NCBI RefSeq assembly: GCF_000737575.1
Contig: NZ_CP006270.1
Location: 1,491,163-1,555,162 of the forward strand
Direction of reading: 5' to 3'
From: Synechococcus sp. KORDI-49
Lineage (GTDB): Bacteria; Cyanobacteriota; Cyanobacteriia; PCC-6307; Cyanobiaceae
Length of the DNA stretch: 64,000 nucleotides
A model generated the notes under the pieces. That model did no database searches and was not told the origin of the DNA. It saw nothing but the letters and a program-made list of their open reading frames with translations. How positions within the stretch are numbered: the stretch's first letter is position 1; every line of letters starts with the position of its first letter. Of this stretch, positions 2,614-42,040 are shown piece by piece. The translations under genes were made by a program, and so were the position numbers.

Positions 2614-2662
2614 GGCGGGCCTGAGCTATGGGAAACTCGCCTGTCACCATCTGAGACACCCC

Positions 2663-6272: not shown

Positions 6273-8536
<2,264 letters not shown>

Positions 8537-8895: not shown

Positions 8896-10311
8896 GTGTC
8901 GCAACGATCAAGTTCAGCAGCTCTGCGCAAGGACTACACAAGTGCCATGATTCCATCGATTGCAGAACTGATCAGCCCTGAATTAGCAGGAGCAAGTGCA
9001 CGCATCTTTGGAGACGACAGCGAAGTTGTTCGCATTTATATCCATGACGAGAGTGGCGACACCTACATCGGAGGCGGCAGCGTCGGGCCTCAGTGGATCA
9101 CCACCATGGCAATCGACGATGAACGATACAACTGGATCTTGAATGTTTTCCAGAAATTGGATCAACAACTTGATCTAGATTTCGTCGAAAGCAACACACC
9201 CAATGGCAGTCAGATCAATATTTACTTTGACACTGAAATCGAAGTCGGCGGATCAGGAACAACACTGGGCCTGGCACTCAGCAACGAGGGACGACGTCGA
9301 TCCTGGTGGGAAATCGTCATCAATGCTCCCGTGCTGGCCAATGACCAGGATTATCTCGACTTTGCCATCGTTCACGAACTCGGGCATGTCATGGGCCTGG
9401 AACACCCTTTTGACAACAGCGATGGGGACGTCGCCGGAGAACGCTTCGGTGATCCGGATGCATCGGAGACGACAATGTCGTACACCCGGCCAGACGAAGG
9501 ATGGCCTGACTTCTATTCCGACGCTGACCTCACAGCAATGGCAGCCATCTGGGGACTGGAGGATGACAGGGGAGAGGACTGGCTAATCGGCGACCGACAC
9601 GGCAATGCCCTGCTGTTCACGGCCGACGCCGCCAATGAACGCTTGCGAGAGGAACGCAGCGGTGATCTTGTCATTGGACAGGCTCCTGGGAAGCCACCGG
9701 AACCCATCCTTGCCCTTGATCAGAATGGAACACAACTTCAGATCAATCAACTGGTCAACGCTGGAAGCTGGCAATATCGCTGGGAAAATGAATCCGACTG
9801 GACAACGCAAGTCAATCCGATAGACCGTCATGCCAGTGTGCTGGAATTACACAGTGACGGCAGTGACAGCCTGACACTCACCAATGAAGCAGCACAGGCA
9901 CTGGAGGTACGACAAGTAGATCGCTGGGAGCGAGCCTCAGAAACAGTGATCCGCTACGCCGGCATCAACCAGCTGAGTGAAACAGCGCCGGAATCAGTCG
10001 CTGATGTGATCACTGAGCCGGATGAAATTACGAATTGGCAATCAGACTTCAATGCCGATGGAGAAACTACAGCGTCCCTGGAAGGTCACATTCTGCTACG
10101 CCATCTTCTGGGAACATTTCCTGGAGATGCTCTGATTCAGGGCATTCAGGGGCTCGCCTCCGAAAACCATATGCTGGTTGGAAGCGACACAAACGCCGGA
10201 CAACCCGAGGCCTGGCTAGAGCAAGGAAAAGCAGTCGGCGGCTTCGGAGGAGACAACAACCAACCCCTGAATGCCCTGACCGAAGGATTGGCATTCATCC
10301 AAACCATCTGA
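8896..10311 (+). CDS. Secreted-type metzincin metalloprotease with C-terminal EF-hand-like tag
   Basis: Zinc metalloprotease of the metzincin clan, resembling serralysin- or matrixin-type catalytic domains. Numbered from GTG 8896, the zinc site is HELGHVMGLEHP with ligands H160, H164 and H170 and catalytic E161. The Met-turn TTMSYT has M194, as in metzincins. There is no N-terminal signal peptide. A beta-rich stretch follows, and the last ~88 residues (from about 384) hold DFNADGETTASLEGHILLRH and GTFPGDAL, a calcium-loop-like tag also found at the ends of the 2727-residue protein and the cyclophilin farther on. ATG 8947 is an alternative start (454 residues). Export by a type I system is inferred from the missing signal peptide and acidic composition. 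Confidence 0.85.
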   Translation: MSQRSSSAALRKDYTSAMIPSIAELISPELAGASARIFGDDSEVVRIYIHDESGDTYIGGGSVGPQWITTMAIDDERYNWILNVFQKLDQQLDLDFVESNTPNGSQINIYFDTEIEVGGSGTTLGLALSNEGRRRSWWEIVINAPVLANDQDYLDFAIVHELGHVMGLEHPFDNSDGDVAGERFGDPDASETTMSYTRPDEGWPDFYSDADLTAMAAIWGLEDDRGEDWLIGDRHGNALLFTADAANERLREERSGDLVIGQAPGKPPEPILALDQNGTQLQINQLVNAGSWQYRWENESDWTTQVNPIDRHASVLELHSDGSDSLTLTNEAAQALEVRQVDRWERASETVIRYAGINQLSETAPESVADVITEPDEITNWQSDFNADGETTASLEGHILLRHLLGTFPGDALIQGIQGLASENHMLVGSDTNAGQPEAWLEQGKAVGGFGGDNNQPLNALTEGLAFIQTI

Positions 10312-10315
10312 CTTT

Positions 10316-10333
10316 CGGTGATCTGGATCACCC
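10316..10333. repeat. Short inverted repeat after the metalloprotease gene
   Basis: GGTGATC (10317-10323) and GATCACC (10326-10332) form a perfect seven-base inverted repeat with a two-base centre, six bases after the stop codon. Without a T-tract it may be a weak terminator stem or a protein-binding site. The rest of the 228-base gap up to 10540 is AT-rich; no gene was found in it. Confidence 0.3.
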
Positions 10334-10539
10334 AAGGAACGGCTTTGATATGGTATTAGTCGGAAAGCAAGTGAAACTTTGGTTAAAAGATATTGATCAT
10401 TACAGGTCGATAGAAGCCTGCTTTGCATATTTCTTGAGTGAAAAAGCATTAACGCACCATTTCAAACCTTAGATTTAACTGACAAGCAGATGAATGCTGG
10501 CTAGACTTAGGTGAGTGTGTCAATCCTCAGCAGGAAGTC

Positions 10540-13500
10540 ATGTCGAAGACGCAATCGATCCTCGTAACACCAGTTCTTGCAGACGATTCCAAGTCCCTGC
10601 TAGTACCTGTGTACTATCGCGTTGCGTCTGACGATGTCGACAATGATCCAGCAAGCGTGAACCTGGCTGGCGTTGGAGCTGTGGTGACTTTCGACAGTTC
10701 AGCCCTGACCTTTGATGGCTACAACGCAGACCTGGGAACAGATCTATTCCAGGTACCCACGGCATTCAGTGAATCTGATCTGCGCGGCTCGCTCGAATCA
10801 AGCGGTAGAACCTTTACAGGACTGGACGCGGGTGAGATCGATGGAAACGCATCAACAGATACAGGGATTGCCTTCAATTACATCGTCGCGAACGAATTGT
10901 TCGACGACGATCCCAACACCACTTGGAACGGAGAGCTGGACTGGCCAGGAGATGAAAAGGCTCTCAGCGACAGTGGTATCAAGCTGTTTGATCTCCGCTT
11001 CACGGCATCAGAGACGTTCACCGAAGGTCAGAGTCCGATCAACGTCTACCTGTCGACGACAGCACCCAACTACGGCGGAGTGGCAAGCAATGGCTTCGCC
11101 GTTGTGGAGACAGCCACGCAGGCTTTGAGCAGCATCGCGGTCACGGCCAGCGCAGCACACGTTTCCGAAGCAGACACAGCCGGAGTTATCACGTTCAACA
11201 TCGCCCGCACAGGCGATCTGACCGGCCAAGCCACCGTCAACTGGAACATCAAAACCACTGGTGATGGTGTGATCAACAGTGATGACCTGTTGAGCGCCAC
11301 CAGCGGTACGGTCAGCTTCGGCGATGGAGATGGTGACGCCAAAACCGTCACCCTGTCCATCAGCCAAGACAGCATCTTTGAGTCTGACGAGCAACTGAGC
11401 ATTGAGCTGAGCAATCCGACCGGAAACTCGGTGCTGCAGTCCGGTCAGTTCAGTGCCTCCACCATCATCGTTAACGACGACGCACCAGCTGAACGGCTGG
11501 TGGTCAACAACCCAGCCTTTGATCTGATCGGTTTAACGGGGCTACGCAACGACCCTCGTTACTCCGAAATCGATGGTGAACGCCCTCTGGTAAACGGTGA
11601 AAACATTGATAACTACAAAAATTTCAGCGTTGCTGTTCTCGATTCAGGGGTCGAGGGAACTCACGACAAACTGAAAGATAATTTTGTTGGATATGTCGAT
11701 TTCATCGGCAGTGCAGGGAATGGCACGACCCGTCAGATAACTCTGCTTGACACAAACAATGACAAGATAATATCCGACGCAGAGCTACAAGCAGCCTCCG
11801 AGGAATTCATCGACAATGTGGGGCACGGAACTCACGTTGCTGGAACCGTTGGCTCCAGCGATCCAGAAATTGGTGTTGCAACGGGTGTTGATGTACTTGG
11901 ATTACGCGTCGGCGACGCCTATGGAATGAATGCCGCTGATATCAATGAAGCTCTTCGCTGGGTTCTTCAGAATCGGACAGAGCACAACATTATTGCCGTC
12001 AACATGTCTCTGGGAGGCGGTTTCTTCGCCACCCGTCCAGAAAATGATGAATCAGTTCAACAGGTCAGAGAGATCATTCAAGAGCTGGAAGAGCACGGAA
12101 TAACTGTTGTTTCAGCAGCAGGCAACAGTTATTTCGCAAACCACCTCAGCAATGAACTGAGGGAGAACCTGATGTCTCCCGCCATTGCAAGTTCCCTGGC
12201 GGTCGGAGCTGTGTGGAAAGACAACTCCCTCCAAAATGTTCAGACGGGTGGAGGATCCATTGACTTCGAAACAGGAGCCGACCGGATTACAGCCTTCTCC
12301 CAACGCCTGAGCACTTACGACGGCATGCTGTTCGCTCCAGGAGCGATGATCCCGTCCACAGTGCCTGGAAACGGAATCGGGTCGAAAGCCGGCACATCCA
12401 TGGCTTCGCCAATGGTCGCTGGAGCAGTTGCTCTGCTCCAGGATGCTGCACTCACCTTCGGAGGCCGTCTTCTGTCCACCCGTGAAGTGGCAGACATCCT
12501 CGATCGCACCGCTGTTCAGGTGTTCGATGGTGATGATGAAAATAACAATGTCACGGCGACATTCAAGAACTACAAAAGGATGAATGTCTACTCAGCCGTT
12601 CAGCAGGTTGAAAGAATGTTTGTAGCACCAACCGATGGTGGAGATAAAATCACCTATTACTTCACTTACACATACAGCAACGGTGATTCATACAAAGGCT
12701 ATGGATACGCAACAGATGTAGATTCAATCTATGCAGAAGGCCTGACACCAGATGAGAATAACAGTGTCACAATCTCCAATGTTTCACTGACAGACACAGA
12801 AGGGTCAGCAACAACTGGAACAGGAATGTATGTAATTCACAGTATCGTCAATGGCGCCGAAGGTGACGTCGGCCGCGTTGAACTGACAACGTACAACGAC
12901 GTCGATACCGAGCACGGAAATGCCATTCAGGTGTACGGCTTTGGTACATCAGGGCTGGGATCGGAAAAAGGAGATGCTTTTGGTGAGGACGGCAGCGACG
13001 GAACATTTGATTCAGGATTCACAAATCAAAACGAAGCAGATCTCGTCGAAAATGCATATTTAGATATCCAGAAATATGGGTTTGTCTACCGTTACAGCAC
13101 CAAAGCAAGTTATGCCGTTGATGAAAACGTGACGCTCGCTGCCCAACTGAGCGGAAGCAACGAGAACTTCACCATTGTAGGAGGTGATGATCAAGAATTG
13201 TTCACTATCAATCCAATACAAATTGGCAACAACACCTTTGGAGTCCTGAACTTCAAAGAAAGTCCGGATTACGAGCAAGCGGCTGATAGCAATTCAGACA
13301 ATATCTACAAAGTCAATGTTCGCTCAAACGAAGTCGCCACGATCAATGGTGCAGATACAGAAATTGGTGTGATTCAGGAAATTACGATCAATGTCAGCGA
13401 TATCAACGAGCGACCAGAATTTCTTGATTCTCCGATCAATCAGGACCCGACAGAAAAACACGTCTACCTCGTTCCGGAAGGCAGCACGGCAGTTACCACG

Positions 13501-16500
13501 TTGCTCGCCAACGACCCTGATGCAGCCGATCAGAATGCTCTTAGTTTCAGCATCGTTGACGACAGCTCAGCCACCGATACAACACCAGGACTGTTCCAGA
13601 TCGATGAGGCGACCGGAGAATTAAGCCTAATCACTCCACCTGATCACGAAACACTGAAGCAAAACGGAAACTGGATTTTCGATCTCACCATTGAAGTTCG
13701 AGATAGCGGTGGTCCGGGAAACGAGCTCGATGCGAATGGTCAGGCCATTCCACTTAGCAAGAGGCGTTACATTCAAGTTCAGATTACTGATGTTGATCAA
13801 CACGACGTCGAATTCCTCGAGCCGGCTGATCGTCAGGGTGAAACCGTCGAAATCAACAACGGATTGTTTGATGGCGTCGTCGCCGAAGGATCTGTAGCAG
13901 GCACAGAGGTTGACATCACAGCAAATGCAATCGACCAAGATGCCACCAACAACACCATCACCTATTCGCTGAGTGATGGATCAGATGATGCTCTCTTCAC
14001 CATTCATCCCAACACCGGAGTTGTCACGGTCAAGAATGGCGCTGGTATTGATTTTGAAACAGCAGAAAGCCACACGATTGAAGTCGTCGCGGAATCATCT
14101 GATGGATCAACAACAAGCCGTCAGTTCACAATCGGTGTGGAAAATGTGCGTGAAGCCGATCCTTACTTCAACAGTTCTGCAAGCCGAAGTGTAGACGAAG
14201 GAACCACAACTGTTAGCACAACGGATGACTTTGTGGGCGGTCAGGCAATCACTGACCCCGAATCTCAGGGTCCATACACTTACAGTATTTCTGGAGGGGC
14301 AGATCAGAATCTGTTCAGCGTTGAGGCCAGCAATGGTTCCCTGAGCTTTATCGCAGCACCAGACTTCGAAGCTCCATCCGATACCGATACAGACAACGTC
14401 TATTCCGTCGAGCTCACGGCCAGCAACGGTGCGGGTACATCCAAAGCTCAGCTACTCACCATCAGGGTTAACGATGTCAACGAATCTCCGGTCAGTGCAC
14501 CGATCGATATCAACAGCACTGGTGATTCTCTTAACGAAAATGCCATCTCCGGCACTGCAACAGGGATCCAGGCCTCAAGCACCGATGCCGATGGAAGCAA
14601 CAACGGTGTGACCTACAGCCTTGTGGTGGCAGAGGGCGATGCACCTGCGGATACCTTCGCAATCAATCCCAACACAGGTGTCATCACTGTTCAGGTTCCA
14701 GACGCACTGAATTTCGAAGCCAATCCCGATGTCACAGTCACTGTACGGGCGACATCTGAAGATGGATCAACCGCAGACACACAATTCACCATCCCACTAG
14801 TCAACCTCAATGAGGAGTTTGAACTCAGCTCAGCAACCAATTTCTCCATCAATGAAGGAAGCAATCGCACTGTTGGACAACTGACTGCGATTGATGACGA
14901 CGGCACTACAGATTTCAGCTTCAACCTGGTTGGCGCTGATACCGGCGATGCCAATTTCTTCACAATTAATTCATCAACAGGTTTGCTGAGTTTCAAGGTC
15001 GATCCTGATTATGAAACTCTTGCAAGCGAATCAAGGCCGCACTTTCAATTTCAAGTTGAGATCTCTGATGATGTTCCAGAAGGCGCCATCGGTGATCAGA
15101 TCACCAAAACCATCGACGTCCAGGTTGACATCAATGATGTAGTCGAAAGAACCACGACACTTCCCGGTTTCCTGAGCGGTGACAGCGCGCAGACACAGGC
15201 TAATTCCATTGATTCGGAGCTCTACACAGGTCATGGCTATGCCCGTGTCGTCGATGAGACGCCTCTTTACAGCCTGAACCAGCAAGTGGTTGGTGATTAT
15301 GGTATTTACACCATCACCTCAGTACAAACCCTGAAGCGTGATGCCAATGAGGTGGAGAAACTTGATAACAAAGTCTTGATCGATGACTACTACGACTTCC
15401 AGGTATCCCACAACATCCTGGACGAGGATGGCAATGTTGTTACACCGGCCGGAACCAAACTGAGTTCTGATGACAGCAGTCTGGATGCCAATGCCCGAGC
15501 TGCATTCGCTATCCACACTCTGGGAGGAGGCAATGCTGGACTCGGGTCAGAAACCGGTGAAGCTTACAACTTCTTCCAGAACAATGAAAAATACGCATTC
15601 TCTCCTGAACTTCAGGCCGACGTCGTTGGTACCAACCCAACCGATTACGCCTATTACACGTTCACTTATTACTTTGGAGCAGGTGATGGAGACTTCTACA
15701 AAGGTTACGGATTTGCTCACGAGGGATCCTTTGGATTAAGCACCCAAGAGCAGAACAACAATCTATACGGAAACTGGAAAGCCATCCAGAATGGCAGAGC
15801 AGATGATGCCGGCACAACTGATGTGGATGAATCACGTGAGTTGAAATACACAGCCAACAACGAGGGTTACTACATTATCGATAGCGTGTTTGCTAATGCC
15901 CCGCTGGATGACTCCGCGCTCGGTCTCGTTGGCGTTGACGAATACTTCGATGCAGATTTTCTCAACAGAGAGGCTGGCGACACGCAAGCAGGTCTCTACG
16001 CCCGTGATGTGATCGGCTACGGTGAATCTGGATTGGGCAGTGAAGCAGGAAAAGTCGTCGATTACGACGAGGTCAGTTTTGACATCTATTTCGGCAATAC
16101 ATCAACACTGAACGATAATTTTTACGGTTGGACCGACATGCGTTGGGATTGGTCAACCGAAGGGGTGCATTACGACCTGAGCTTGAACCAGCAAGAAGCA
16201 AACCTCGAGTATCGAGGAACGGATCAAGACACCACAAAACATGAAGCTGACAATCTCGGCTCGCTGACCATCGACACAACGGCAATCACAACAAACGCCC
16301 TGAACGGAACATCAGCGACGCATGTAATCAACTCGGATGGATTTGCTGGAAACTGGATCGGACGTGATCGTCTGATGACGACTGGGAATGCACCTGATGA
16401 CACCCTGTTTGGTGGATGGATACCAGAAGACATCGACTTGTACAAATTTGTAGTTGACACTTCTGATGTCAACTTTGCAGCCATCGACAACTCGGGAGAA

Positions 16501-19500
16501 TTGGTCGATGGAGCTGATCCTGTGCAGGCCAAAGGGGCCCGCGTCACCATCGAAACGAGCTTCCTGAAAAATAATGCCGGTGAAGTAGTCAACCCTTCCG
16601 TCGACACAATCCTGCGCTTATTCAATGCTTTTGGCGAGCAGATCGGCTACGACGACGACTCCGGCACACTCCCCTTCCAATCGAAGATCAACGCCAGACT
16701 TGCTGATGGTGAGTACTACCTCGGCGTCAGCGGTTACGACAACGACGGCTACAACCCTCTCCGCGAAGAGAACGCTATCGAAGCCGATACAGGCCGCTAC
16801 GTACTCAACATCTCCACAGCTCCCCTCCGAGAAGTCGAAGCACAGGATCGCAATGGCACCTTGGCAACGGCGCGCTTCGCAGCCGACCCAACCACCGGTG
16901 AAGGAGCGCTCGACATCATCAATTCAGCTTCTTTCAAAAACGGCTTCGATGTCCCCGTCTGGATCGGAACAGATCCGATTGACTATTCAGTGACTGGTGA
17001 GGCTGCCAGCAACTGGTACACCGTCGGCCAGAAAGATGTCGACATGATCACGTTCGAAATCCCCAGCGAAGATCGTGCAGGTGTCAAGACACCCATCACG
17101 ATTCTCACCAGTCCGAAAGCAAGTCCCATGGCTTATGTGGAAGCTTATGAGGTGAATGGGGGAACACTCACAGCAGCAATCAGCAGCCCAACGAATATGG
17201 TCGACACGTTGAAGGCAAATACACAACATTACCTCCTGTTTGATTTCAATCGGGAGAACGTAAGCAACTTTGATCTGGCAGACATCGTTCTGTTCGACGG
17301 TAGCGCCATCTCAGATGCCATTGGTACATTTGATACCTCATATCTTGCAGCCGTCAATTCCTCCTATCAGGTCACGGCAGATGGAACAGCAGATAACACG
17401 ACGACCGCAAACATGTTTGCCGTCAAATTCACTCCTGTGCAGGACATGGCCTTTGACCCCGGGAAAGACAGAAGGGACACGTCTTTCCGCATTCGTGCTG
17501 CCGATGGCAACACCGATGTCGGGGTGATTGGAGCCTTCGATATGGATGCCGACATGGATGGTTTCTACGATGCGGAGATTGACACAGTCCTCAGACTATT
17601 CGATGCCGATCCAAGCAGTGAAACTTATGGCAACGAACTGGCTGTTAATGATGATTATGGCCATGATGTTTATTCACGTCTTGATCTGAACCTTGATCCA
17701 GGAATTTACGCCGTCGCGGTTTCTGGCTACGGCAACGAGGAATATAAGGCTGTTCCTGCTGACACAACCGGACCAGACGGTAGCCCTGATGGAACAGTAG
17801 ATGGCTACGACGCTGCTGCTGCCACGGATCGATTCCGCGGGTCTACAGGCATTACGCAGTTGCACGTGATCGTCAATACCAACGTTCAATCTGACCCGAA
17901 CGGAACACTCATCAATGCCGACACTATTGAATTAACGCCCGGCAACAGTCTTTCCCTGAGCGAATCCTTCGGAACCGATCTCAAACGAGAGGATGGCACT
18001 ACAAGGAATGTGCTTCTCGTCGACGACGTTGACCTTTACACCCTGAACGCAACGACAGATGGCAGATTACTGATTGATGTCGACGCGGTAGCAGATGCCA
18101 ATGAGAAGACAAAAGCAACTATGCTTCGTGTCTTCAACTCTCGGGGAGAAGAAATTGCCAGCGACACGGCGAGCAGCTATGCCCAGGACATCGCTGGCAA
18201 TGTCACTGAAAGCACCGAGGCGGATCACAAAGGAAGTCATCTCAACGTAGAAGTCCTTGAAGATCAGACGTATTACATCGGGGTATCCCAACTAGAAGGT
18301 CAACAGGACTATGAGCCGACCTCAATCAACGGCCGCTCAGTCAACACTGTCAATGAAGGTAGTTATCAGATACACATTGATTATCAACCCAATTTCAGCA
18401 GCCTAGAACTGGATGCCGATGGTTACATCGGCGCGACTTCAATCACCGATATTGATCTCAGCAGCAACAGCTTCACAGGTTCAGGAACAATCGGGGATGA
18501 CATCACCACCAACGACCTACTGGTGGGGCCTTCAGATATTGACTTTTTCAGGATCTTCTTCGATCGCGATGGAGAAGGCAATGCAACAAGCACAAACTCA
18601 CGAATTCTGAGTGTTGAAGCCAAAGGTGTTGCTGCCACGGAGCGACTCGACGTGGCTCTGGATCTTTACACGATGAACGATGCTGGATCTGAATACCTGC
18701 GCGTCAATGGCAATGATAATCAAGGTGACGTCAGCATCACTGACCCCAACGATGAAAACCGTGACGCCCACTTCAGTGCAAGCATCAACCCCGGCACCGA
18801 GTATTTCCTTGCCGTACGGGGTTCAGGGAATGACATCGTCAACCCAGAAAACCTCAGTCACTCCGTGTATGGGAGCACGGGCGATTACACCATCGCAGCA
18901 TCTCTGGCTGCAGCGGTCACCGGCCGAAGCAACAGCACCCTCACAGGCTTTCTGAACAACTCCGTCAGCTACGACGGATCAGACCTCTCAACCCTGCAGG
19001 GCAGCACGTTTGATCTCGATCTGATTGCCGACTCCCTTGAAGCCACTGGCATCACTACAGGTGAGGACAATACAGCAGTGGAACTGGACATCCCATCGGT
19101 TCCTGCAACAGGCCTGATCTTTGAGGGCGAAATCGGGGCCGATGGCGGTGAGAACACACACCCGTTCGCGGCCCTCTACCGCGCAGAGCTGGGACTGGAT
19201 GATGATGCACCTGTTCGCAGTGATTTCGTCGGTGCCGACGACATCGACCTGTTCCGCTTCCGGATCGAACAGGCAGGGTCCTATGAACTCCGCACCAAGA
19301 TCCTGGGTGATTCCACCCAGCAGGCAGATCCCGACATCCGACTGTTCAAAGCCGATGGCACTGAGCTGACGTCGTCCGCAAGCCTGGAGCATCCTGCACA
19401 AGGACTCACTGAACAACTGGTGATTCAGCTGGCCGTCGGCGATTACGTCGCCATGCTCTCCGGAGAAGGTGCCGCAACGGATCAGAAACTGAAGCTCGAC

Positions 19501-22500: not shown

Positions 22501-24114
22501 ACTGAACGATCAATAACACTCTCGGTCGACACCAGGGACACAACGCCTCCATCAGTTGCTATCACAGCAGACGATCAAGAACTCACCATTGGCGAGACTG
22601 CTAATATCACCTTTACATTCTCTGAGCCTATACAGTCAGAGTCACCCCAAAATTTCGAAATTGAAGATATTTTGGTTACCGGAGGATCGATAAGCCAATT
22701 CTCCGGCGAGAACCTTACTTACACTGCACTCTTCACCCCAGCAGCCAACAGCACAACTGCCGGCGTCATCACAGTACCTAGATTTAAATTTAACGACCTG
22801 ACCGGGAACGTTAACAGCGCACAGACGCAAGCAATCATCAATATCAACACACTTGTTCCTCCTACGATAACAATCAACTACGACCTAAACGATGTTGATT
22901 TAGACGCAAGTCAGATCGCAATTCAATTCATTCAAAGTGTACCAACCGACTTCAAGATCGAACACGTCAGCGTTACAGGTGGAGAGCTCACTCTGCTAGA
23001 TGCAAGTTCAACAGATCAGTTGATCCGATACGGAACATTTACACCATCAGCAAACAACGTTTCCGGCGATACAACAATTACAATTCTCGCCAATAGTTTC
23101 AAAGACGAGAACAATACATTCAATAATGTTGAGATTTCTAAGATCATTGAAAATGATATTCCCACTCCGCCAACTACACCAACTACGCCAACTGCACCAA
23201 CGACTCCCTCGACTCCGAGCACGCCCGCAGAGACAAGCACACCTCCATCTGCACCCAGTGCTTCCAATCAAACACCTCCTATCACAACAAGTGCGGGTGA
23301 ACCTGCCATTGGAACAACGCCTCAGGGTGCTGCTATCAAAGCACCAACCAGCAACGCTTCCGAAGCAGCTAAAGCCGCTGTCAACAATATCAAAACCTCC
23401 TCAGATATTGCGGTTCAAGCGACAGACAAGGGTGTGGTCGCGACAACAACCGGTGGCTCAAAAGTCACAGTCAAACCTGAAACAGCAGACAAGGTCGAAA
23501 TCGCCGAAGACAACACTGGTCGCCTGACATTGAAAGCCACTGAGAAAGTTGAAGATGTTGAAATTGTCGCCAACAAGCCTGACCTCAGTATTGATGGATC
23601 CAAAATCAAAAACTCGACATTTGTTTTCGAGGAAGGCGTTACTGCAAATTTGGTCAGTACATCCAAGGTACTGAACAACGCGACCTTCACCATGCAGGAA
23701 GGCAAAGACAAGGCAACGTTTGAGAGTGGGACCATCAAAAATTCGACAGTTGATACCGGTGCCGGTGGAGACGATATTGTGATTGGAGCTGATGCAACTG
23801 TTAAAAAGGCAAGCTTTGACCTTGGAAGCGGTAAAGACGAAGTGGTTATTGAGGGTGAGGTCAAAAAGGCCGAGTTCAATATGGGTGACGACAATCAAAA
23901 AGACAAAATACAAATCGACTCACTGGAAAACATCAAGAAAAAGCTGACAATTGACAACTTTGGCAAGCGTGACAAGCTGATCGTTGATGGTGATAAATAT
24001 GGCTTTAAAGCCCTTCAAGAACTTGACGGATCATTAGGAAAAATAGAAGTCAACTTCCAGGGCGAAGAGAATAATTCAAGTTCTGATATTGTTTCTGGCT
24101 TCGACTTCCTATAA
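10540..24114 (+). CDS. Giant multidomain subtilase / cadherin / PPC / cohesin-dockerin / Ig-like surface protein
   Basis: One uninterrupted frame of 4524 residues. By rough position: 1-190 cohesin-like beta domain; 200-317 Calx-beta; 360-700 S8 subtilisin domain with catalytic D368 (VLDSGV), H429 (GHGTHVAG), N529 (AAGN) and S620 (GTSMASP), so it should be active; 704-814, 1562-1678 and 1703-1841 three copies of an unrecognised module ending in GLGSExG; 855-1545 about six cadherin-like repeats; 1900-3000 several prepeptidase-C-terminal-like domains (DIDLYKF, DIDLFRF); 3159-3590 cohesin-like, dockerin-like (3305-3373) and cohesin-like; 3597-4204 six Ig-like repeats; 4208-4247 a Thr/Pro linker; 4260-4524 an acidic beta-solenoid-like end closing with GFDFL. 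No signal peptide is present, so type I secretion to the cell surface is inferred. Domain names are by pattern. Confidence 0.9.
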   Translation: MSKTQSILVTPVLADDSKSLLVPVYYRVASDDVDNDPASVNLAGVGAVVTFDSSALTFDGYNADLGTDLFQVPTAFSESDLRGSLESSGRTFTGLDAGEIDGNASTDTGIAFNYIVANELFDDDPNTTWNGELDWPGDEKALSDSGIKLFDLRFTASETFTEGQSPINVYLSTTAPNYGGVASNGFAVVETATQALSSIAVTASAAHVSEADTAGVITFNIARTGDLTGQATVNWNIKTTGDGVINSDDLLSATSGTVSFGDGDGDAKTVTLSISQDSIFESDEQLSIELSNPTGNSVLQSGQFSASTIIVNDDAPAERLVVNNPAFDLIGLTGLRNDPRYSEIDGERPLVNGENIDNYKNFSVAVLDSGVEGTHDKLKDNFVGYVDFIGSAGNGTTRQITLLDTNNDKIISDAELQAASEEFIDNVGHGTHVAGTVGSSDPEIGVATGVDVLGLRVGDAYGMNAADINEALRWVLQNRTEHNIIAVNMSLGGGFFATRPENDESVQQVREIIQELEEHGITVVSAAGNSYFANHLSNELRENLMSPAIASSLAVGAVWKDNSLQNVQTGGGSIDFETGADRITAFSQRLSTYDGMLFAPGAMIPSTVPGNGIGSKAGTSMASPMVAGAVALLQDAALTFGGRLLSTREVADILDRTAVQVFDGDDENNNVTATFKNYKRMNVYSAVQQVERMFVAPTDGGDKITYYFTYTYSNGDSYKGYGYATDVDSIYAEGLTPDENNSVTISNVSLTDTEGSATTGTGMYVIHSIVNGAEGDVGRVELTTYNDVDTEHGNAIQVYGFGTSGLGSEKGDAFGEDGSDGTFDSGFTNQNEADLVENAYLDIQKYGFVYRYSTKASYAVDENVTLAAQLSGSNENFTIVGGDDQELFTINPIQIGNNTFGVLNFKESPDYEQAADSNSDNIYKVNVRSNEVATINGADTEIGVIQEITINVSDINERPEFLDSPINQDPTEKHVYLVPEGSTAVTTLLANDPDAADQNALSFSIVDDSSATDTTPGLFQIDEATGELSLITPPDHETLKQNGNWIFDLTIEVRDSGGPGNELDANGQAIPLSKRRYIQVQITDVDQHDVEFLEPADRQGETVEINNGLFDGVVAEGSVAGTEVDITANAIDQDATNNTITYSLSDGSDDALFTIHPNTGVVTVKNGAGIDFETAESHTIEVVAESSDGSTTSRQFTIGVENVREADPYFNSSASRSVDEGTTTVSTTDDFVGGQAITDPESQGPYTYSISGGADQNLFSVEASNGSLSFIAAPDFEAPSDTDTDNVYSVELTASNGAGTSKAQLLTIRVNDVNESPVSAPIDINSTGDSLNENAISGTATGIQASSTDADGSNNGVTYSLVVAEGDAPADTFAINPNTGVITVQVPDALNFEANPDVTVTVRATSEDGSTADTQFTIPLVNLNEEFELSSATNFSINEGSNRTVGQLTAIDDDGTTDFSFNLVGADTGDANFFTINSSTGLLSFKVDPDYETLASESRPHFQFQVEISDDVPEGAIGDQITKTIDVQVDINDVVERTTTLPGFLSGDSAQTQANSIDSELYTGHGYARVVDETPLYSLNQQVVGDYGIYTITSVQTLKRDANEVEKLDNKVLIDDYYDFQVSHNILDEDGNVVTPAGTKLSSDDSSLDANARAAFAIHTLGGGNAGLGSETGEAYNFFQNNEKYAFSPELQADVVGTNPTDYAYYTFTYYFGAGDGDFYKGYGFAHEGSFGLSTQEQNNNLYGNWKAIQNGRADDAGTTDVDESRELKYTANNEGYYIIDSVFANAPLDDSALGLVGVDEYFDADFLNREAGDTQAGLYARDVIGYGESGLGSEAGKVVDYDEVSFDIYFGNTSTLNDNFYGWTDMRWDWSTEGVHYDLSLNQQEANLEYRGTDQDTTKHEADNLGSLTIDTTAITTNALNGTSATHVINSDGFAGNWIGRDRLMTTGNAPDDTLFGGWIPEDIDLYKFVVDTSDVNFAAIDNSGELVDGADPVQAKGARVTIETSFLKNNAGEVVNPSVDTILRLFNAFGEQIGYDDDSGTLPFQSKINARLADGEYYLGVSGYDNDGYNPLREENAIEADTGRYVLNISTAPLREVEAQDRNGTLATARFAADPTTGEGALDIINSASFKNGFDVPVWIGTDPIDYSVTGEAASNWYTVGQKDVDMITFEIPSEDRAGVKTPITILTSPKASPMAYVEAYEVNGGTLTAAISSPTNMVDTLKANTQHYLLFDFNRENVSNFDLADIVLFDGSAISDAIGTFDTSYLAAVNSSYQVTADGTADNTTTANMFAVKFTPVQDMAFDPGKDRRDTSFRIRAADGNTDVGVIGAFDMDADMDGFYDAEIDTVLRLFDADPSSETYGNELAVNDDYGHDVYSRLDLNLDPGIYAVAVSGYGNEEYKAVPADTTGPDGSPDGTVDGYDAAAATDRFRGSTGITQLHVIVNTNVQSDPNGTLINADTIELTPGNSLSLSESFGTDLKREDGTTRNVLLVDDVDLYTLNATTDGRLLIDVDAVADANEKTKATMLRVFNSRGEEIASDTASSYAQDIAGNVTESTEADHKGSHLNVEVLEDQTYYIGVSQLEGQQDYEPTSINGRSVNTVNEGSYQIHIDYQPNFSSLELDADGYIGATSITDIDLSSNSFTGSGTIGDDITTNDLLVGPSDIDFFRIFFDRDGEGNATSTNSRILSVEAKGVAATERLDVALDLYTMNDAGSEYLRVNGNDNQGDVSITDPNDENRDAHFSASINPGTEYFLAVRGSGNDIVNPENLSHSVYGSTGDYTIAASLAAAVTGRSNSTLTGFLNNSVSYDGSDLSTLQGSTFDLDLIADSLEATGITTGEDNTAVELDIPSVPATGLIFEGEIGADGGENTHPFAALYRAELGLDDDAPVRSDFVGADDIDLFRFRIEQAGSYELRTKILGDSTQQADPDIRLFKADGTELTSSASLEHPAQGLTEQLVIQLAVGDYVAMLSGEGAATDQKLKLDTKTDTAGSQPGFDGSLTEADYIELGRNMGQYAFEIRQAVLETTEAEQSGTTAGFNLNIPVNIGGLRVAGNSKSVFLVRTVDGAETEIAGSVHKDAVTSRLSFVPSDPAEMAQPGQYDFRIRKGHLQGLNADGSLAMDPSTGNALVGTVAGSLQLTTDDTVESTTIQTVTNESRLVYLPSFTRAPGQEVNLEGGDGIPVYITDTTDLRELSVTLHFEPGSLTIAGSNTITLASDLTDAGWSISTTDLEQSVGRLSVTLSGPSELAAIEDDRELFRIDASVPMNSTFRSEELFGVEASGRKDTGAPLDIMGSSALMKIAIMGDNDGDGEIKVGDAISVLRNIVGLDEGFTGYSYTDPTIIGDTDGNGSLSVGDAIQGLRTIVGLENSEFMQVNDYVSDSIAQLAGAGVNPIDPIVRIGSATVESAETVQTVTLPVDIVFLDPGPTHISGFEIEIGYNAAVLNFVEDGSAVEISKLLNNYPTDNDVSRLRGSNMVGWLVDPGYEMNGDHDPLLTTLAASATENGESGVIRVAGGASANGIPVADASAVAEDNPIRIGSLVFKIPAGTADAIFDFDLTKETVSINGIVDGSNTPLTTTDVIDGVVTLGDAVAPDTTPPTIAITTNSAELGVGDTATITFTLSEASTDFTVDDVTPIGGSISNFSGSGTSYEAMFTPDPESTTEGVISVDASKFTDAAGNANTSASSVSMTVDTRDTTPPTVTITTNSAELGVGDTATITFTLSEASTDFTVDDVTPIGGSISNFSGSGTSYAAMFTPDPESTTTGVVSVAAGAFKDAADNASIDDASVSMTVNTVVPDTTAPTVAITTSNDALAANERATITFTLSEDSADFTEDDVTVSGGTLSSFSGTGTTYTATFTPADNSIADGVVSIDAGKFTDAAGNANTAGSITMSVNTDVTAPTVTITSNVDSLGIGETANISFTLSEASTNFAVEDIIVAGGTLSGFNGSGNSYTATFTPTLNSNVDGVLTVEAEKFTDAAGNANTERSITLSVDTRDTTPPSVAITADDQELTIGETANITFTFSEPIQSESPQNFEIEDILVTGGSISQFSGENLTYTALFTPAANSTTAGVITVPRFKFNDLTGNVNSAQTQAIININTLVPPTITINYDLNDVDLDASQIAIQFIQSVPTDFKIEHVSVTGGELTLLDASSTDQLIRYGTFTPSANNVSGDTTITILANSFKDENNTFNNVEISKIIENDIPTPPTTPTTPTAPTTPSTPSTPAETSTPPSAPSASNQTPPITTSAGEPAIGTTPQGAAIKAPTSNASEAAKAAVNNIKTSSDIAVQATDKGVVATTTGGSKVTVKPETADKVEIAEDNTGRLTLKATEKVEDVEIVANKPDLSIDGSKIKNSTFVFEEGVTANLVSTSKVLNNATFTMQEGKDKATFESGTIKNSTVDTGAGGDDIVIGADATVKKASFDLGSGKDEVVIEGEVKKAEFNMGDDNQKDKIQIDSLENIKKKLTIDNFGKRDKLIVDGDKYGFKALQELDGSLGKIEVNFQGEENNSSSDIVSGFDFL
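21351..21802 (+). repeat. Near-perfect tandem duplication of an Ig-like repeat
   Basis: The 149 bases at 21351-21499 recur without difference at 21654-21802, an offset of 303 bases (101 codons). The flanks diverge gradually, and four further Ig-like units downstream to about 23150 are clearly older copies. The pattern points to recent gene conversion or unequal recombination within the repeat array. Confidence 0.85.
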
Positions 24115-30500: not shown

Positions 30501-32726
30501 TCAAAACAAGATGATTGGCAAGAATCCCCGACAAATGATGAGCGGAATGTCAGCTTCCAATTACCTGCCGGCGAGTGGAGACTCATTGTTGAACATGGCG
30601 AAACATGGAATGAAATCAGCCAAGACTATCAATTAAAAATCAGCACAAGTGCTGCAACCTTTGAAGCAGAAAAGACATTCACGGAAGATTCAACCAGCCA
30701 TGACTTCAATGTCAGCCTAGATAACTATAGAAAAGAAAAGATTTTCAATGTTGATGTTGCAGGAAATCTCACCTTTAGCCTGACAACACCTGAAGATTTC
30801 GAAGGTGATGTATTCATGAATTTATTTGACCTTGGCGGCCAATGGTTGAATGAATCTTGGACAGGAACATTTAACCAATATGTCGAAGCAGGTTCTTACA
30901 GACTCGAAATCAATTCCTGGACACCTCCAACCCCAGGACTTGAGGCTCCATCAGTCGCAATAAGCGCAACTCTGGATACATCCGTAAGTCTTGACGTTGA
31001 TACAGACACGAAAGATTCACCCAGCGGCTCGATCACAGTCGATGGTGTGCCGACAGAAGGTGAGTTAAATTCACTTGATCCAGAAGACTGGTGGACACTG
31101 AAGCTGAATGGTGGAAAAATCTACACCCTCAGAGCCACTGATTTCACGGAAGACGTGAACCTGGTTGCCCTGAATAATTTATTAAATTACGAAGAATGGA
31201 GCGTGAACTGGGGGACAGAAACAGTCAACGACGATGGCTCCTTCACGTTCACTCCCTCAGATGAAACACTGCTATTTGATCTCTCCGAATATGAAAGTAC
31301 CAAGACCTATCAATTCACTGTTAATCCCCATATCTATTCCTTCAATCCAACGAGTTACAGCCTAATAGCAAAAAGCCACGACACTTTGGAGGCGGCACAA
31401 ACTGAAATTAGCACAGGAATCGTTTCTTATGATGATATTTTTGACAGCTTCTTCGGAGAAACCAGTGACTCGTCTGATTCTGTCAAGATTGATAAAAACG
31501 ACTTAATGGGATTGGCCAAGCTAACAGAACCAACGACCGATGAAGTCAACACGCTGAAAGCTGCGCTGGAAAAAGAATTGGGTGCCATGGGTCAGGAACT
31601 CTCAGGAAACCCAATCGCGTTCAAGAGCTCCCTCACCTCAGAGGATGGCAGCTCAACCAGTTCAACAGTCGCTGTCGTTGTCACGAAGGACGTTCCAGAA
31701 ACGGTTTCCGATCAGGTCTCGTCTGAGAACATCACCGAACTGAACAACAACGAGCCTGCAGAACTCACCAGTACCGGTTCTACAGAAGAGTTCGGAGCGA
31801 AAGAAATTTCAGAACTGGGCAACGACACGAAGGACGAAGCGGAAGATCTCACTCCGATCAGCCAACCAGTTGATGTTTCTGCAAGATCGAGAAGCAGCAC
31901 ACTCTCTGGGTTCCTTGCTGAAGGGAATCCAGGAAACGCACTACAAGGAGAGAACTTCAACTCCAATCACGCTTCCACCACACAGGATCTCGGACTACAA
32001 CGAATTGGTATTCAACTCAGTGATGAAATCATTGCTCAGTTGAGTGATCCTGAAGAGACTCGAGACCTGATCTGGTATCGCAAACCAAATAATGGTGATG
32101 CTTTCATCTTTACGTACGACAGCACAACCGGTACCGGAGCACTCCTTGAAGACTCAGATTCAAATGGCACAAACGATGTCATGGCTCTCTATGTCAGAGA
32201 TGGTGGGCGTGGCGATGATGACAAGCAAGTGAATGGTGAGATCGTCTCACCAGGTGGCTTGGCATTCGCCAGCTTGACGGCCGCTGCTCCAGACACAACC
32301 ACCACCACTGTCATCAATGAAGATGGTGTAGCTGTTGAAGTTGAGACAGTACTCTGGAAATTGGATGTGGACTCTGATGGCATCATCAATGCCCTCGCCG
32401 ATGGACTGGCTATCACACGCCGTCATCTTGAAGGCAGTCTTGAAACTGATCCAGTTCTGAATCAACTGGTGTCGACCAGTGGAGAACGCACAACGGAATC
32501 TTCCGTGAGAAAATATCTTGACCTTGGCATTCAAACACCAGACAAGGTGCTTGACATTGACAACTCTGGTACGTTCGACACGAGTGATCTGGCACTGATT
32601 CTGCGTCAGGCCACTGGTACCTTCCCAAGCACATCTCTCTCAAACGGTTTCAGCAACGACACAGTCACGCACGCCGACATTATCGAAAATCTGAATAGTC
32701 TAATCTCAGATCAACAGGCAACATAA
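24543..32726 (+). CDS. Giant acidic repeat protein with C-terminal EF-hand/dockerin-like pair
   Basis: A 2727-residue, very acidic protein of unknown function. After a short non-signal N-terminus (Trp-rich helix, residues 1-75) come 24-residue acidic repeats (about 112-190), a beta-rich domain (250-730), an acidic Gln/Asn/Pro linker, a second beta-rich domain (about 860-1140), thirteen 15-residue repeats of type GEGQQPPQGDFEDHN (1169-1363), then a long beta-rich section. Parts of that section, such as VDGKKLVFTLSESV, look like bacterial Ig-like or SwmB-type repeats, and others like PPC domains (tentative). Near the end are two calcium-loop-like units, DVDSDGIINALADGLAITRR (from 2608) and DIDNSGTFDTSDLALILRQ with GTFPS (from 2671). 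No catalytic motif was seen. It is probably a cell-surface or matrix protein exported by a type I system. Confidence 0.85.
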   Translation: MLRMQEMLNHPWFLIMSKLHGLDAYGYVVNAWLDGELETSGLSEIPALGWFWSDLLKHRMWMIDELENWAGIINEQEEPPEGGDGPGNEDHGFGPDHGENGDGPGDPFDPEAELDGGDEEDIDDNQAEDDELDPDAELDGGEEEDIDDNQAEDDELDPDAELDDGEEEDIDDNQAEDDELVPDAELDDGEDGDNFEDIALQHPDNEEEDAIFNNQIDDENNDEFANDVDDGNEGNDEDTISETQGNPDIAENYSSTFVSIANKLSGTNDYDSSNFREFFHGSNGAPAHSEANKATLAELSFMGDLSEHFDDLGNFTGTVKLVDEDGTVIENNIPSFTDPFSLMYPDSGMMPGMREDYIFVFVSEEIQEGYSFEVDFKIEGETEGSTDVVVGPLLAESYPISDFWSLDAFQLDVRIGEAEYSINGMEEAEGYFDINNNQIVLNGTNLGLDNGVELGFAEHEGLPNSIKSFATYKVSNLEETGRETIFNLTNKTGKVVSFNDDKISERLESLSENSYGANDGLRMAVSKTETQFRIDWDMAGDIDFISLDPLITEDFVVETLNPDAADGDVFTTWTKLELNDVKAAFSEIEISLKQEGAIPSLESTDYAIPESWEIRMSYDDLIKETIPADALASNDEQDAEQSINANETYLFFDKSVFDVVIGNEDLTSATLSIGPAGASQITLEDIHQLESLEVLIGSITDAAAWAQATDVTWTKYIESHFMPGYGVGHDEMGGDEGPNDMPEGQPPIGHDENGMMNEGEPDMNEEHQDIHTTQLVMQEEETEQNDVQNVSTSHNDEIDNTGEVPITGNQPNHQDDTENPPGEEEDAPNEMQEGPFNPDQEGTGGNTEMGGGAESTEVVNPGLKLSALTDGEGLSDFSVTLTLQHQDGELDRVYNSIWFGKLNEEGTAVAADPDGFSLITRSWQNWEETNVVTIDRYGDGLGVLAIDDSVDYPEWSDYFPNVFFETPWHLPWDQQRLAAKTLKVEGKAFDSGDDLLLNVEIEIPKENEAGHTHSEYRHYTLLVDIYGGDSNQESPLSDLEKEELFMMSGGGFKDPYGPQYESEIHIPLALEEGETAFTPELLTGHLQQKLESFFDGLELYESFDFGSVSSPGHNSITDGQQFRALIDLYAESKGLEAVVTEVDPFSDDSEDDDTDNPDDLDAVALQHEDEGQEPPQGDFEDDNGEGQQPPQGDFEDHDGEGQQPPQGDFEDHNGEGQQPPQGDFEDDNGEGQEPPQGDFEDDNGEGQQPPQGDFEDDNGEGQQPPQGDFEDHNGEGQQPPQGDFEDHNGEGQEPPQGDFEDDNGEGQQPPQGDFEDHNGEGQEPPQGDFEDHDGEDQEPPQGGFEDHNGEGQEPPQGDFEDHDGDPADKDYGPGLEITVGDEIFTWNVSGHGGDPDEGTGPHATRNGQGLSFTDQELESIKALDEIELFADQVLTFGDIVDESDEFRTLKSSTIDFNIPEDGEKPLVDMWGYVVFDESNDLAFMEAEEAYNSSFHTESYEWVNNFGLRKPGFEWAWTDPLGPDSDSNRRIQVDYVGMDELAKIEANGSTYKPGDIKLKIDKKLVDPEKYDVRVEWGHQLIITLKEEGEIILTPESKVSFELSDDVYDEEGVLTKAGHGFVDVNGQRLEAGEKVKVDNWAAFSQMGFDFSEQIMLNPETSVVKGKKITLEFYGDADFSTDSEKATVPEKADFQFYSYDPARGVETSLTLSEEDIAVDGKKLVFTLSESVPSGTFVEATYDPSLSTFSDSSTEADNAFTNLNGVAAEPFYFLPLKNESPDEQGPHIMYADVAGKMMHLQLEDPNGIYIGDAELSNENLPNPSNFSLEATDSENKTKKITATSVILNRWGDLEFQLDSAVTSTDVVKLTYSGNSLKDSLKNSSKIRDFEVWNNSVDFSFEDANSWFLLNDLTNVVFNDGLYIQDNGNVSSLSSNFQFIDEYVFKLKEFSKVTIDLTDVNGETLDDDGDANLDFVLENERTFDYVGGSFNSKQDDWQESPTNDERNVSFQLPAGEWRLIVEHGETWNEISQDYQLKISTSAATFEAEKTFTEDSTSHDFNVSLDNYRKEKIFNVDVAGNLTFSLTTPEDFEGDVFMNLFDLGGQWLNESWTGTFNQYVEAGSYRLEINSWTPPTPGLEAPSVAISATLDTSVSLDVDTDTKDSPSGSITVDGVPTEGELNSLDPEDWWTLKLNGGKIYTLRATDFTEDVNLVALNNLLNYEEWSVNWGTETVNDDGSFTFTPSDETLLFDLSEYESTKTYQFTVNPHIYSFNPTSYSLIAKSHDTLEAAQTEISTGIVSYDDIFDSFFGETSDSSDSVKIDKNDLMGLAKLTEPTTDEVNTLKAALEKELGAMGQELSGNPIAFKSSLTSEDGSSTSSTVAVVVTKDVPETVSDQVSSENITELNNNEPAELTSTGSTEEFGAKEISELGNDTKDEAEDLTPISQPVDVSARSRSSTLSGFLAEGNPGNALQGENFNSNHASTTQDLGLQRIGIQLSDEIIAQLSDPEETRDLIWYRKPNNGDAFIFTYDSTTGTGALLEDSDSNGTNDVMALYVRDGGRGDDDKQVNGEIVSPGGLAFASLTAAAPDTTTTTVINEDGVAVEVETVLWKLDVDSDGIINALADGLAITRRHLEGSLETDPVLNQLVSTSGERTTESSVRKYLDLGIQTPDKVLDIDNSGTFDTSDLALILRQATGTFPSTSLSNGFSNDTVTHADIIENLNSLISDQQAT
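24876..25114 (+). repeat. 72-base tandem repeats encoding an acidic 24-residue unit
   Basis: Three full copies and a partial fourth begin at 24876, 24948, 25020 and 25092, exactly 72 bases apart. Each encodes a unit of the kind EEDIDDNQAEDDELDPD preceded by AELDGG or AELDDG. Copies differ at only a few positions, which indicates recent expansion. Confidence 0.9.
28047..28631 (+). repeat. Thirteen 45-base tandem repeats (PPQGDFED)
   Basis: Thirteen in-frame copies of a 45-base unit encode variants of GEGQ(Q/E)PPQGDFED(D/H)(N/D). Variation is restricted to three or four codon positions, and variants recur in mixed order, as expected from repeated slippage or unequal exchange. No spacers are present, so it is not a CRISPR array. 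Confidence 0.95.
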
Positions 32727-32747
32727 AGGGAGGACAGATCAACTGCT

Positions 32748-33995
32748 TTGGAATATCAGGAATTGCAGGCTATTTTTGATGAGTGGTTGACTCAAAATGA
32801 TCACTGGAAGCCGATCATCTATCGATCGGCTTCCAGTGAAATTCATTCCATCGACCTCCAAACATTTCAAGGCGGGCATCGAATTGCACGTTTTCTCCTT
32901 AGTGATAATTTAGCTGAACGCATCAATTCCGTTCTTGGCGATCAACTACCGATCGTCCTTACTCAGGACTGGATTGATGTCTCTCTACTTGACGACGAAA
33001 TATCCGGGGCACCGCAGACTGTCGCTAACTTTGAACGCTACGTTGAAGAGGGAAAATATACAGACGTTATTCTTCATCGTCTGATTGCAGGATTCGTGCT
33101 TCAGGGAGGAGGCTTTCAATGGTCTGACAACCAGACAAGTCCATCCACCATTGAAAGCTTTTCGCCAGTACAGAACGAATTCAGCAGTGAGCGAAGCAAT
33201 ACACGAGGCACGATTGCGATGGCCAAAATTGGCAACGATCCCGATAGCGCCACCAACCAGTGGTTTTTCAATCTTGCCGACAACAGCAACAATCTAGACA
33301 ACCAGAATGGCGGTTTTACTGTCTTTGGAAAGACAAAGACAGAAACAGACTTGCTCTTTGTCGACATATTAGCAAGCTCACCAGTTGCCAATGCAGGTGG
33401 CGTATTCAGCACTCTGCCTTATTTATCTCTAACCGACAATACAATTACAGCACCTGACACCGTGAGATTCAAATCAATTGAAATTATCGACCAGCGCAAG
33501 GAAATCGATTTTGAACTAAGCATTGACAATGCAGATCAGACCCCCATTAAAGCGACTCTAGAAAATGGCCAAACTCTGATCTCGTCGGAAACCATAATCG
33601 AACAAAGCTCTATGGATTGGCTCACATTACGAGCGACAGAAAAGCTAAGTGGCCAACACCTTGAACAACTGATACCCGTCTTCAACAGTACAAATGACAA
33701 CCTAACGGGCTACCAGCAACTCCTGGATAATGCATTGATCCTAAGCAACCATTTGAACACCAAAGAAGACGAACAGATCAATTCAATAGCCCTATCAAGT
33801 CAAACAGAAAGCATCATCGATATTGATCAGAATCGAAATATCGATCTTCAGGACGGCAAACTGATGCTGAGACACGCCTTTGGCACATTCCCAGGCCTGT
33901 CCTTACAGCAGAATTTAAATGGAATCGCCGAAGATACAAATCCTTCAGACTTGTTGAATTCCCTGAATCAGCTGACAACTCCTGTGGAAACCTGA
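32748..33995 (+). CDS. Cyclophilin-type peptidyl-prolyl isomerase with EF-hand-like C-terminal tag
   Basis: A 415-residue protein. The cyclophilin core covers roughly residues 85-225: APQTVANFERYVEEGKY, then ILHRLIAGFVLQGGGF (substrate-site Arg and Phe), TRGTIAMAKIG, SATNQWFFNLADN and FTVFGK. It should speed cis-trans isomerisation of proline peptide bonds. A beta-rich region follows, and from residue 358 DIDQNRNIDLQDGKLMLRH with GTFPGLSL repeats the tag of the two large neighbours. No signal peptide is seen. The start is taken as TTG 32748, behind an AAGGGAGGA ribosome-binding site 14 bases upstream; no in-frame ATG or GTG is nearby. It follows the acidic protein by 21 bases, so they are probably co-transcribed and may act together outside the cell. 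Confidence 0.85.
   Translation: MEYQELQAIFDEWLTQNDHWKPIIYRSASSEIHSIDLQTFQGGHRIARFLLSDNLAERINSVLGDQLPIVLTQDWIDVSLLDDEISGAPQTVANFERYVEEGKYTDVILHRLIAGFVLQGGGFQWSDNQTSPSTIESFSPVQNEFSSERSNTRGTIAMAKIGNDPDSATNQWFFNLADNSNNLDNQNGGFTVFGKTKTETDLLFVDILASSPVANAGGVFSTLPYLSLTDNTITAPDTVRFKSIEIIDQRKEIDFELSIDNADQTPIKATLENGQTLISSETIIEQSSMDWLTLRATEKLSGQHLEQLIPVFNSTNDNLTGYQQLLDNALILSNHLNTKEDEQINSIALSSQTESIIDIDQNRNIDLQDGKLMLRHAFGTFPGLSLQQNLNGIAEDTNPSDLLNSLNQLTTPVET
32801..32839. repeat. 16-bp perfect inverted repeat inside the cyclophilin coding start
   Basis: TCACTGGAAGCCGATC (32801-32816) and GATCGGCTTCCAGTGA (32824-32839) are perfect reverse complements with a seven-base loop. The hairpin sits about 50 bases after the assumed TTG start. 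No T-tract follows, so termination is unlikely; an RNA structure or recombination scar is possible. Confidence 0.85.
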
Positions 33996-34001
33996 TTGCA
34001 A

Positions 34002-34826: not shown

Positions 34827-34852
34827 TCAGTCAAAGCCGCATGCTGATGGGT

Positions 34853-42018: not shown

Positions 42019-42040
42019 AAAAGGCTACTGATATCAATTC

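Follow-up and report, generated by a model that had tools for sequence, protein, structure and literature searches.

A 64,000-nucleotide window of the Synechococcus sp. KORDI-49 genome (bases 1,491,163-1,555,162 of the single 2,585,813-base contig) contains a cluster of four plus-strand frames at positions 8896-33995, encoding a metalloprotease (MP), a giant subtilase (SUB), an acidic protein (ACID) and a cyclophilin (CYP) (Table 1). MP, ACID and CYP end in a common tag, here called DocA, which is found at the C-termini of further proteins of this genome. The N-terminal domain of SUB, CohA, is well supported by profile comparison as a member of the cohesin family, and the tag and CohA co-occur in cyanobacterial genomes. 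Assembly through cohesin and dockerin modules serves as a model of modular protein architecture and has been described chiefly in anaerobes that degrade cellulose. The likeliest reading, to which we give an even chance, is that the cluster encodes an assembly of this type, in which a dockerin variant docks onto the subtilase.

In such an assembly DocA would be an elongated dockerin relative, with two calcium loop-helix units, extra helices after each and a place at the protein end, and would hold its passenger to extracellular domains of the cohesin type. With calcium, SUB would collect MP, ACID, CYP and about a dozen more tagged proteins through its N-terminal CohA; other cohesin-like domains, CohC (on three proteins of the genome) and CohB (on two), may also hold tagged proteins. 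The result would be an assembly for proteolysis and structure, on the cell surface or outside it, and not one that degrades cellulose. Binding, calcium dependence, extracellular location and proteolytic function are what we infer. A broader proposal is put forward tentatively: some picocyanobacteria (this strain, Prochlorococcus AG-402-L23 and AG-412-J13, and Synechococcus lacustris) may possess a calcium-dependent extracellular multi-enzyme complex, built from a new elongated dockerin class and a cohesin hub, for proteolysis and matrix building and not for cellulose. The hub here would be the 4524-residue protease, and the cargo would include an 11,299-residue protein.

A shared C-terminal tag

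As the preliminary description had it, MP, ACID and CYP end in the same design of calcium loop, helix and GTFPG, at residues ~384, ~2671 and ~358. A genome search with the 101-residue ACID end (17 rows at E <= 1) brought out a common module at the C-terminus, in which a D-x-D loop with DG(L/I) after it is joined by a spacer to a second loop, with LR...GTFPG behind. Two of its rows were rejected by eye, L011 as phosphatase-like and L013 as a DEAD-box protein. A profile (A3) of eight own-genome tags, including that of ACID and excluding those of MP and CYP, gave 20 rows at E <= 1 across the whole genome and recovered the CYP tag at E 6e-10 and the MP tag at E 2.7e-6. A 47-row profile, all rows of which except that of ACID came from other organisms, gave E 3.6e-6 for the CYP tag and 2.5e-5 for the MP tag in the own-genome frames gathered. 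The likeness among the three tags exceeds chance.

Pairing of the calcium loops, judged by eye, holds for ACID, in which two are clear, but the second MP loop (residues ~452-471) is degenerate and CYP has a single one. The order of the units is reversed in MP and in tagged frames of 11,299 and 580 residues, while CYP and a 1097-residue frame contain part of the tag only.

The three tagged proteins first described proved too narrow a set. Among 942 frames (gathered stretches plus the window), A3 identified 15 from this genome and eight from Synechococcus lacustris (G080); 15 is a minimum because frames were chosen for having matches. Pfam and NCBIfam place their passengers among matrixin-like proteases (MP, below cut-off, and L056), subtilases (L051), esterases of the polyhydroxybutyrate-depolymerase type (L057) and cyclophilins (CYP). 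RCC1 repeats, RTX repeats, Ig-like repeats and a lamin tail domain (LTD; L055) also occur, and the 1789-residue tagged frame of L046 matches no Pfam family. Pfam scans of 14 of the 15 frames (all but the 11,299-residue one) found proteases, an esterase and a cyclophilin, and no glycoside hydrolase. The 11,299-residue open frame (G000:C1:2140646-2174545; L052-L054), which ends in a reversed tag, is of the size of the marine Synechococcus protein SwmB.

In all 15 own-genome frames the matched stretch is terminal, ending 2-53 residues short of the C-terminus. This is also what would be expected if the tag were a signal for export or surface sorting, recognized at the C-terminus by a secretion or anchoring apparatus and binding no cohesin-type domain, an explanation that we consider rather unlikely. 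Signs of an N-terminal signal peptide are scant in the tagged frames, as that explanation would have it: by a crude measure, the top 12-residue hydrophobicity is 2.02 in L056 and no higher than 1.66 in any of the remaining 14, and the same measure gives 2.12-2.88 in ten hand-picked proteobacterial relatives. In addition, three tags are preceded by a weak choice-of-anchor-U-like stretch, in ACID (Table 1) and in the L046 and L055 frames (E 1.4e-5 and 5.6e-5, below cut-off).

The relatives of the tag speak against a sorting signal. A wider scan with one pattern (A6) found at least 76 loci, in cyanobacteria, gammaproteobacteria, Phycisphaera, deltaproteobacteria and others. Sorted mechanically among the matches listed, 46 of 76 tags are C-terminal, 16 lie near the N-terminus, 11 are internal and 3 are undecided, a few of the frames (for example, L169) being poorly read. 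Several of the tags on the N-terminal side stand behind signal-peptide-like starts, and the repeats of G196 and G273 are internal, upstream of regions that by eye resemble RTX. Because N-terminal and internal relatives exist, the tag family is not tied to one export signal, and the idea of a mere type I secretion signal was set back.

Resemblance of the tag to dockerins

On sequence and model comparisons, the tag is read as a distant, elongated dockerin relative and not as a proven dockerin. Dockerin_1 (PF00404) matches four of 11 tag members, at best with E 1.1e-7; six more own-genome tags yielded two weak matches (L046, 0.0098; L050, 0.0034). The tag profile found nothing below E 0.8 among PDB sequences. 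For the predicted structure of the ACID tag, dockerins make up 10 of the 14 structural rows with Z >= 2, the best having Z 4.2 and a root-mean-square deviation of 2.9 over 70 residues. The tag loops are spaced more widely than those of dockerins.

Cohesin-type domains of SUB and other proteins

SUB residues 1-196 align with the CohA profile over the whole domain (hhalign, 96.0%, E 4.9e-9). Among 146 windows of 200 residues from eight own-genome proteins, SUB 1-200 reached 96.6% and the overlapping window 101-300 reached 87.7%; CohC of two tagged frames gave 62.8% and 25.8%, and all others at most 1.6%. A CohA profile built without SUB has one convincing place in the 34 genomes of the genus, SUB residues 44-178 (E 2.9e-4); the weaker rows are two from this genome (0.05 and 0.18) and one from G506 (0.46).

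Judged by its members elsewhere, the CohA family is predicted to adopt the cohesin beta-sandwich fold. L229, a Prochlorococcus frame with two CohA domains, matches Pfam Cohesin at E 3.9e-15 (56.7 bits, cut-off 24.1). AlphaFold2 modelled CohA plus tag from the Anabaenopsis cyclophilin L130 with a predicted local distance difference test score (pLDDT) of 83.8, and rows 1-33 for its CohA are all cohesins (Z 13.8-11.0; best Foldseek E 8e-9). The nearest non-cohesin match, row 34, is the CLIPPER (DUF11) fold (PMC12617251).

The preliminary description had placed further cohesin-like domains on both sides of a dockerin-like pair inside SUB. The domain after the pair (CohC, residues 3397-3593) is weakly indicated: its only Pfam match is Cohesin at E 0.025 (15.2 bits, short of the 24.1 cut-off), and among PDB sequences it finds ScaB (3l8q) at E 0.32. 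There are three CohC copies in this genome and none at E <= 0.01 in the 33 other genomes of the genus, and a wider scan of genome contigs with the CohC alignment found no relative. The region before the pair (CohB, residues ~3156-3300) matches no Pfam family; it is unproven because an hhalign comparison of CohB-DocB with CohA-DocA aligned the Doc parts only. With one each of CohA, CohB and CohC, SUB has the most such domains among the own-genome proteins examined.

In two tagged frames, of 1194 and 1097 residues, CohC is N-terminal and the tag C-terminal. If the cohesin-like end of one chain bound the tag end of the next, head-to-tail polymers would form, with SUB as a component and not the hub. 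This arrangement appears improbable, CohC being weakly like CohA (52% as an alignment, 63% and 26% in single windows).

A second dockerin-like class

The dockerin-like pair inside SUB is present as first described (residues 3307-3369), but it belongs to a class other than the tags, here called DocB. DocB also occurs 42, 14 and 12 residues from the C-termini of own-genome frames of 999, 340 and 704 residues. It gives 86.5% and 76.1% against tag profiles and matches EF-hand_6 at 5e-4, and CohB-DocB of SUB finds the ScaB dockerin 4uyq in PDB at E 0.001 (phmmer). The 704-residue frame (L128) is matrixin-like (E 2.4e-4, below cut-off), and its CohB-DocB unit is 37% identical to that of SUB.

A 3828-residue own-genome frame has a Pfam Dockerin_1 end (E 2.8e-9, genome search), and a tagged 798-residue frame (L049) comes directly after it. 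Prochlorococcus AG-402-L23 (L230) has this gene pair in the same order, again with a giant that ends in a dockerin pair. Its giant is 48% identical over residues 738-2370 and 2399-3828 of the KORDI-49 frame and has ~190 extra residues (1625-1812), between these two blocks, that hold a CohA (1680-1799). The gene after it has the N-terminal 185 residues of the 798-residue frame in common (37%) and ends in CohA plus tag.

Distribution and co-occurrence of tag and CohA

Presence was counted at E <= 0.001 for the tag, E <= 0.01 for CohA and E <= 0.1 for Pfam Cohesin. Of 151 genomes in the family sample 2 have the tag, as do 6 of 386 in the phylum sample and one of the 34 genomes of the genus (19 of them at least 90% complete); the other 33 of the genus contain neither tag nor CohA. 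CohA is present in 13 of 14 tag-bearing cyanobacterial genomes (the exception is G436) and in none of 12 tagless ones, eight of which were chosen for Pfam cohesin matches and four from the family. Five of the 14 (G520, G525, G548, G273 and G196) fed the CohA profile; without them the count is 8 of 9, and G522 is a near relative of G525. Pfam Cohesin was found in 4 of 6 tag-bearing versus 20 of 380 tagless phylum genomes (Fisher p 1.6e-4). For tag-bearing genomes reached via loci, among the matches listed, the figure is 12 of 37 (5 of 7 cyanobacterial, 7 of 30 others).

Among the matches listed, 45 frames have at least 150 residues upstream of the tag, and in 17 of these CohA comes directly before it. 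The two modules might then simply fold together in one chain, the separate copies in KORDI-49 being leftovers or calcium-stabilised ends without docking; CohB and DocB, too, lie side by side in both SUB and the 704-residue frame. This possibility is judged unlikely, as the tag commonly stands with no CohA immediately ahead of it (among the matches listed, in 9 of the 19 cyanobacterial frames whose upstream sequence is long enough) and none of the 15 tagged own-genome frames has CohA at E <= 0.01 (the CohC of L047 gives 0.021). In a Prochloraceae metagenome-assembled genome (MAG) the modules are split between contigs, L131 having a tag but no CohA and an RTX protein (L234) a CohA but no tag. 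L131 looked like a metalloprotease by eye and was rejected as such, Pfam having found none. Since CohA and tag are on separate neighbouring genes here and fused in many relatives, contact between them is favoured.

Some passengers of the tag recur in other genomes: Prochlorococcus has a matrixin-like protease (L197, narrowly short of the cut-off at E 1.2e-4), and there are a subtilase (L116) and an Anabaenopsis cyclophilin (L130). Anabaenopsis elenkinii has two cyclophilin frames ending in CohA plus tag, ~5 kb apart. Near G196:C1 3310784 (L112), a 36,883-residue open frame with a cohesin lies beside a CohA-tag protein; its length is doubtful because part of the stretch reads N. The Deltaproteobacteria MAG ER2bin7 (G536, L152) has 29 Pfam cohesin matches, and the tag family is also present.

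Several observations weigh against docking of DocA proteins on SUB. The ACID tag stays at 18.8 bits, short of the Pfam Dockerin cut-off of 22.9, and the tags of MP, CYP, L049 and the 11,299-residue frame have no Pfam Dockerin match; the full second loop is absent from the MP and CYP tags. The ACID tag model has no significant Foldseek match (the top row, a double dockerin, has E 0.71), and its structural likeness to dockerins is weak, Z being at most 4.2. SUB residues 38-178 lack a direct Pfam Cohesin match, the fold of this CohA is carried over from relatives, and in the L130 comparison CLIPPER (10.8) and integrin (10.5) domains score level with the lowest-ranking cohesins. Among the matches listed, CohA is absent directly before the tag in 28 of 45 relatives, and 25 of 37 tag-bearing genomes reached via loci are without Pfam Cohesin. 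The co-occurring genomes are related, and fusion of both modules in one protein inflates the link. CohA and DocA in a single chain could be an inward-facing unit, and the one CohA of SUB provides one good socket for 15 tags.

Comparison with known systems

The novelty claimed at first holds in part. Titles and abstract openings from part of the matching literature revealed no cohesin-dockerin system in cyanobacteria; however, a proteolytic complex of this type, the 'Planctosome', has already been proposed for peptide degradation in freshwater Nemodlikiaceae planctomycetes (PMC6461901). The Planctosome, too, combines cohesin and dockerin proteins with metallopeptidases, and its anchor protein has a lamin tail domain, as does the tagged L055 frame. 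It has a dockerin-bearing adaptor with a signal peptide, whereas KORDI-49 has elongated terminal tags, and both proposals rest on sequence only. For Ca. Stygibacter (Cloacimonadota), a proteolytic complex has likewise been proposed, its dockerin-bearing peptidases and large cohesin scaffold being deduced from genomes, but it has polysaccharide enzymes too and belongs to another phylum (PMC8542988). Cellulosomal proteases also exist (PMC12484212): the S8 protease of C. thermocellum carries dockerin modules on a subtilase, and its double dockerin (PDB 8x39/8x3a) is the best structural row for the ACID tag, although it consists of two whole dockerins in tandem and its host makes cellulosomes. Subtilases with Dockerin_1 have been recorded in Halobacterium and in one other record of a serine-protease survey (PMC2605481).

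Cellulosomes (Clostridium and Acetivibrio, types I and II) likewise combine C-terminal dockerins on enzymes with a large cohesin-bearing protein, and the CohA fold matches their cohesins. They differ from the system suggested here, in which the 14 scanned of the 15 tagged frames have no glycoside hydrolase, the tag is longer with extra helices and the scaffold candidate is itself a protease. Very large proteins with cadherin-like or RTX-like repeats also occur in marine Synechococcus, SwmB being an example (PMC9387257), and one tagged frame of KORDI-49 reaches 11,299 residues; the likeness considered here is one of size and repeat type, and the available part of that source mentions no dockerin-like end.

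If docking on SUB is correct, free-living oxygen-producing phototrophs would use a plug-and-socket principle to organize their exoenzymes and giant proteins, and many unexplained giant proteins of picocyanobacteria could be grouped in this way. Protein engineering would gain a new coupling part in the elongated tag. SUB 1-200 and the ACID tag form a directly testable pair.

Features of the window

Table 1. Proteins of the cluster and their parts (window positions)
Feature	Position	Strand	Remarks
MP, matrixin/serralysin-like metalloprotease, 471 residues	8896..10311	+	HExxHxxGxxH at residue 160 (script); Pfam Peptidase_M10 E 0.0011, below cut-off
MP C-terminal tag, residues 384-471	10045..10308	+	Units in reverse: loop-helix with GTFPG ahead of the degenerate second loop
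SUB, giant subtilase, 4524 residues, putative scaffold	10540..24114	+	S8 domain at residues 360-665; Calx-beta, cadherin and Big_12 repeats
CohA of SUB, cohesin-type, N-terminal, residues 38-178	10651..11073	+	hhalign 96.0% / 96.6%; profile E 2.9e-4 and 5.7e-5
CohB of SUB, cohesin-like region, residues ~3156-3300	20005..20439	+	Directly before DocB; unit also ends the 704-residue matrixin-like frame
DocB of SUB, internal dockerin-like calcium pair, residues 3307-3369	20458..20646	+	Class differs from the tags
CohC of SUB, cohesin-like, residues 3397-3593	20728..21318	+	Also N-terminal in two tagged frames of the genome
ACID, acidic protein, 2727 residues	24543..32726	+	Acidic tandem repeats
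ACID choice-of-anchor-U-like stretch, just before tag	32160..32264	+	NCBIfam NF041766 E 1.3e-5, below cut-off
ACID C-terminal tag, residues 2604-2704, complete two-loop form	32352..32654	+	Model: six helices, pLDDT 82.7
CYP, cyclophilin-type peptidyl-prolyl isomerase (PPIase), 415 residues	32748..33995	+	PPIase at residues 88-202; Pfam Pro_isomerase E 4.2e-26
CYP C-terminal tag, residues 358-391	33819..33920	+	One loop-helix with GTFPG

The three subtilase motifs are kept in SUB, at residues 368, 429 and 618. The tandem repeats of ACID comprise a 72-bp unit (3.4 copies, 24867-25114) and a 45-bp unit (13.1 copies, 28049-28636), and the protein has a sub-threshold pullulanase-X25 match (Pfam, E 0.095).

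The cluster is flanked by a radical-SAM gene (7922-8536) on one side and queC (35326) on the other. The G+C content drops across it from about 62% to 44-56%, so that the stretch looks like an island. A 274-residue frame on the minus strand (34002-34826) adjoins it and has no Pfam match at E <= 0.001. A scan of 24050-35400 found 7 promoter-like sites (11.8 expected) and 11 terminator-like sites (10.0 expected). ACID and CYP are separated by 21 bases, and a 17-pair inverted repeat with one G-T pair and a 5-base loop (32801-32839) lies within the first codons of the CYP frame; the true CYP start may be later, or the repeat may be a regulatory hairpin after ACID. A second low-G+C stretch (44-53%) at 42000-52000 contains genes for formamidase, a carbon-nitrogen hydrolase and an ATP-binding cassette (ABC) transporter of the branched-chain type.

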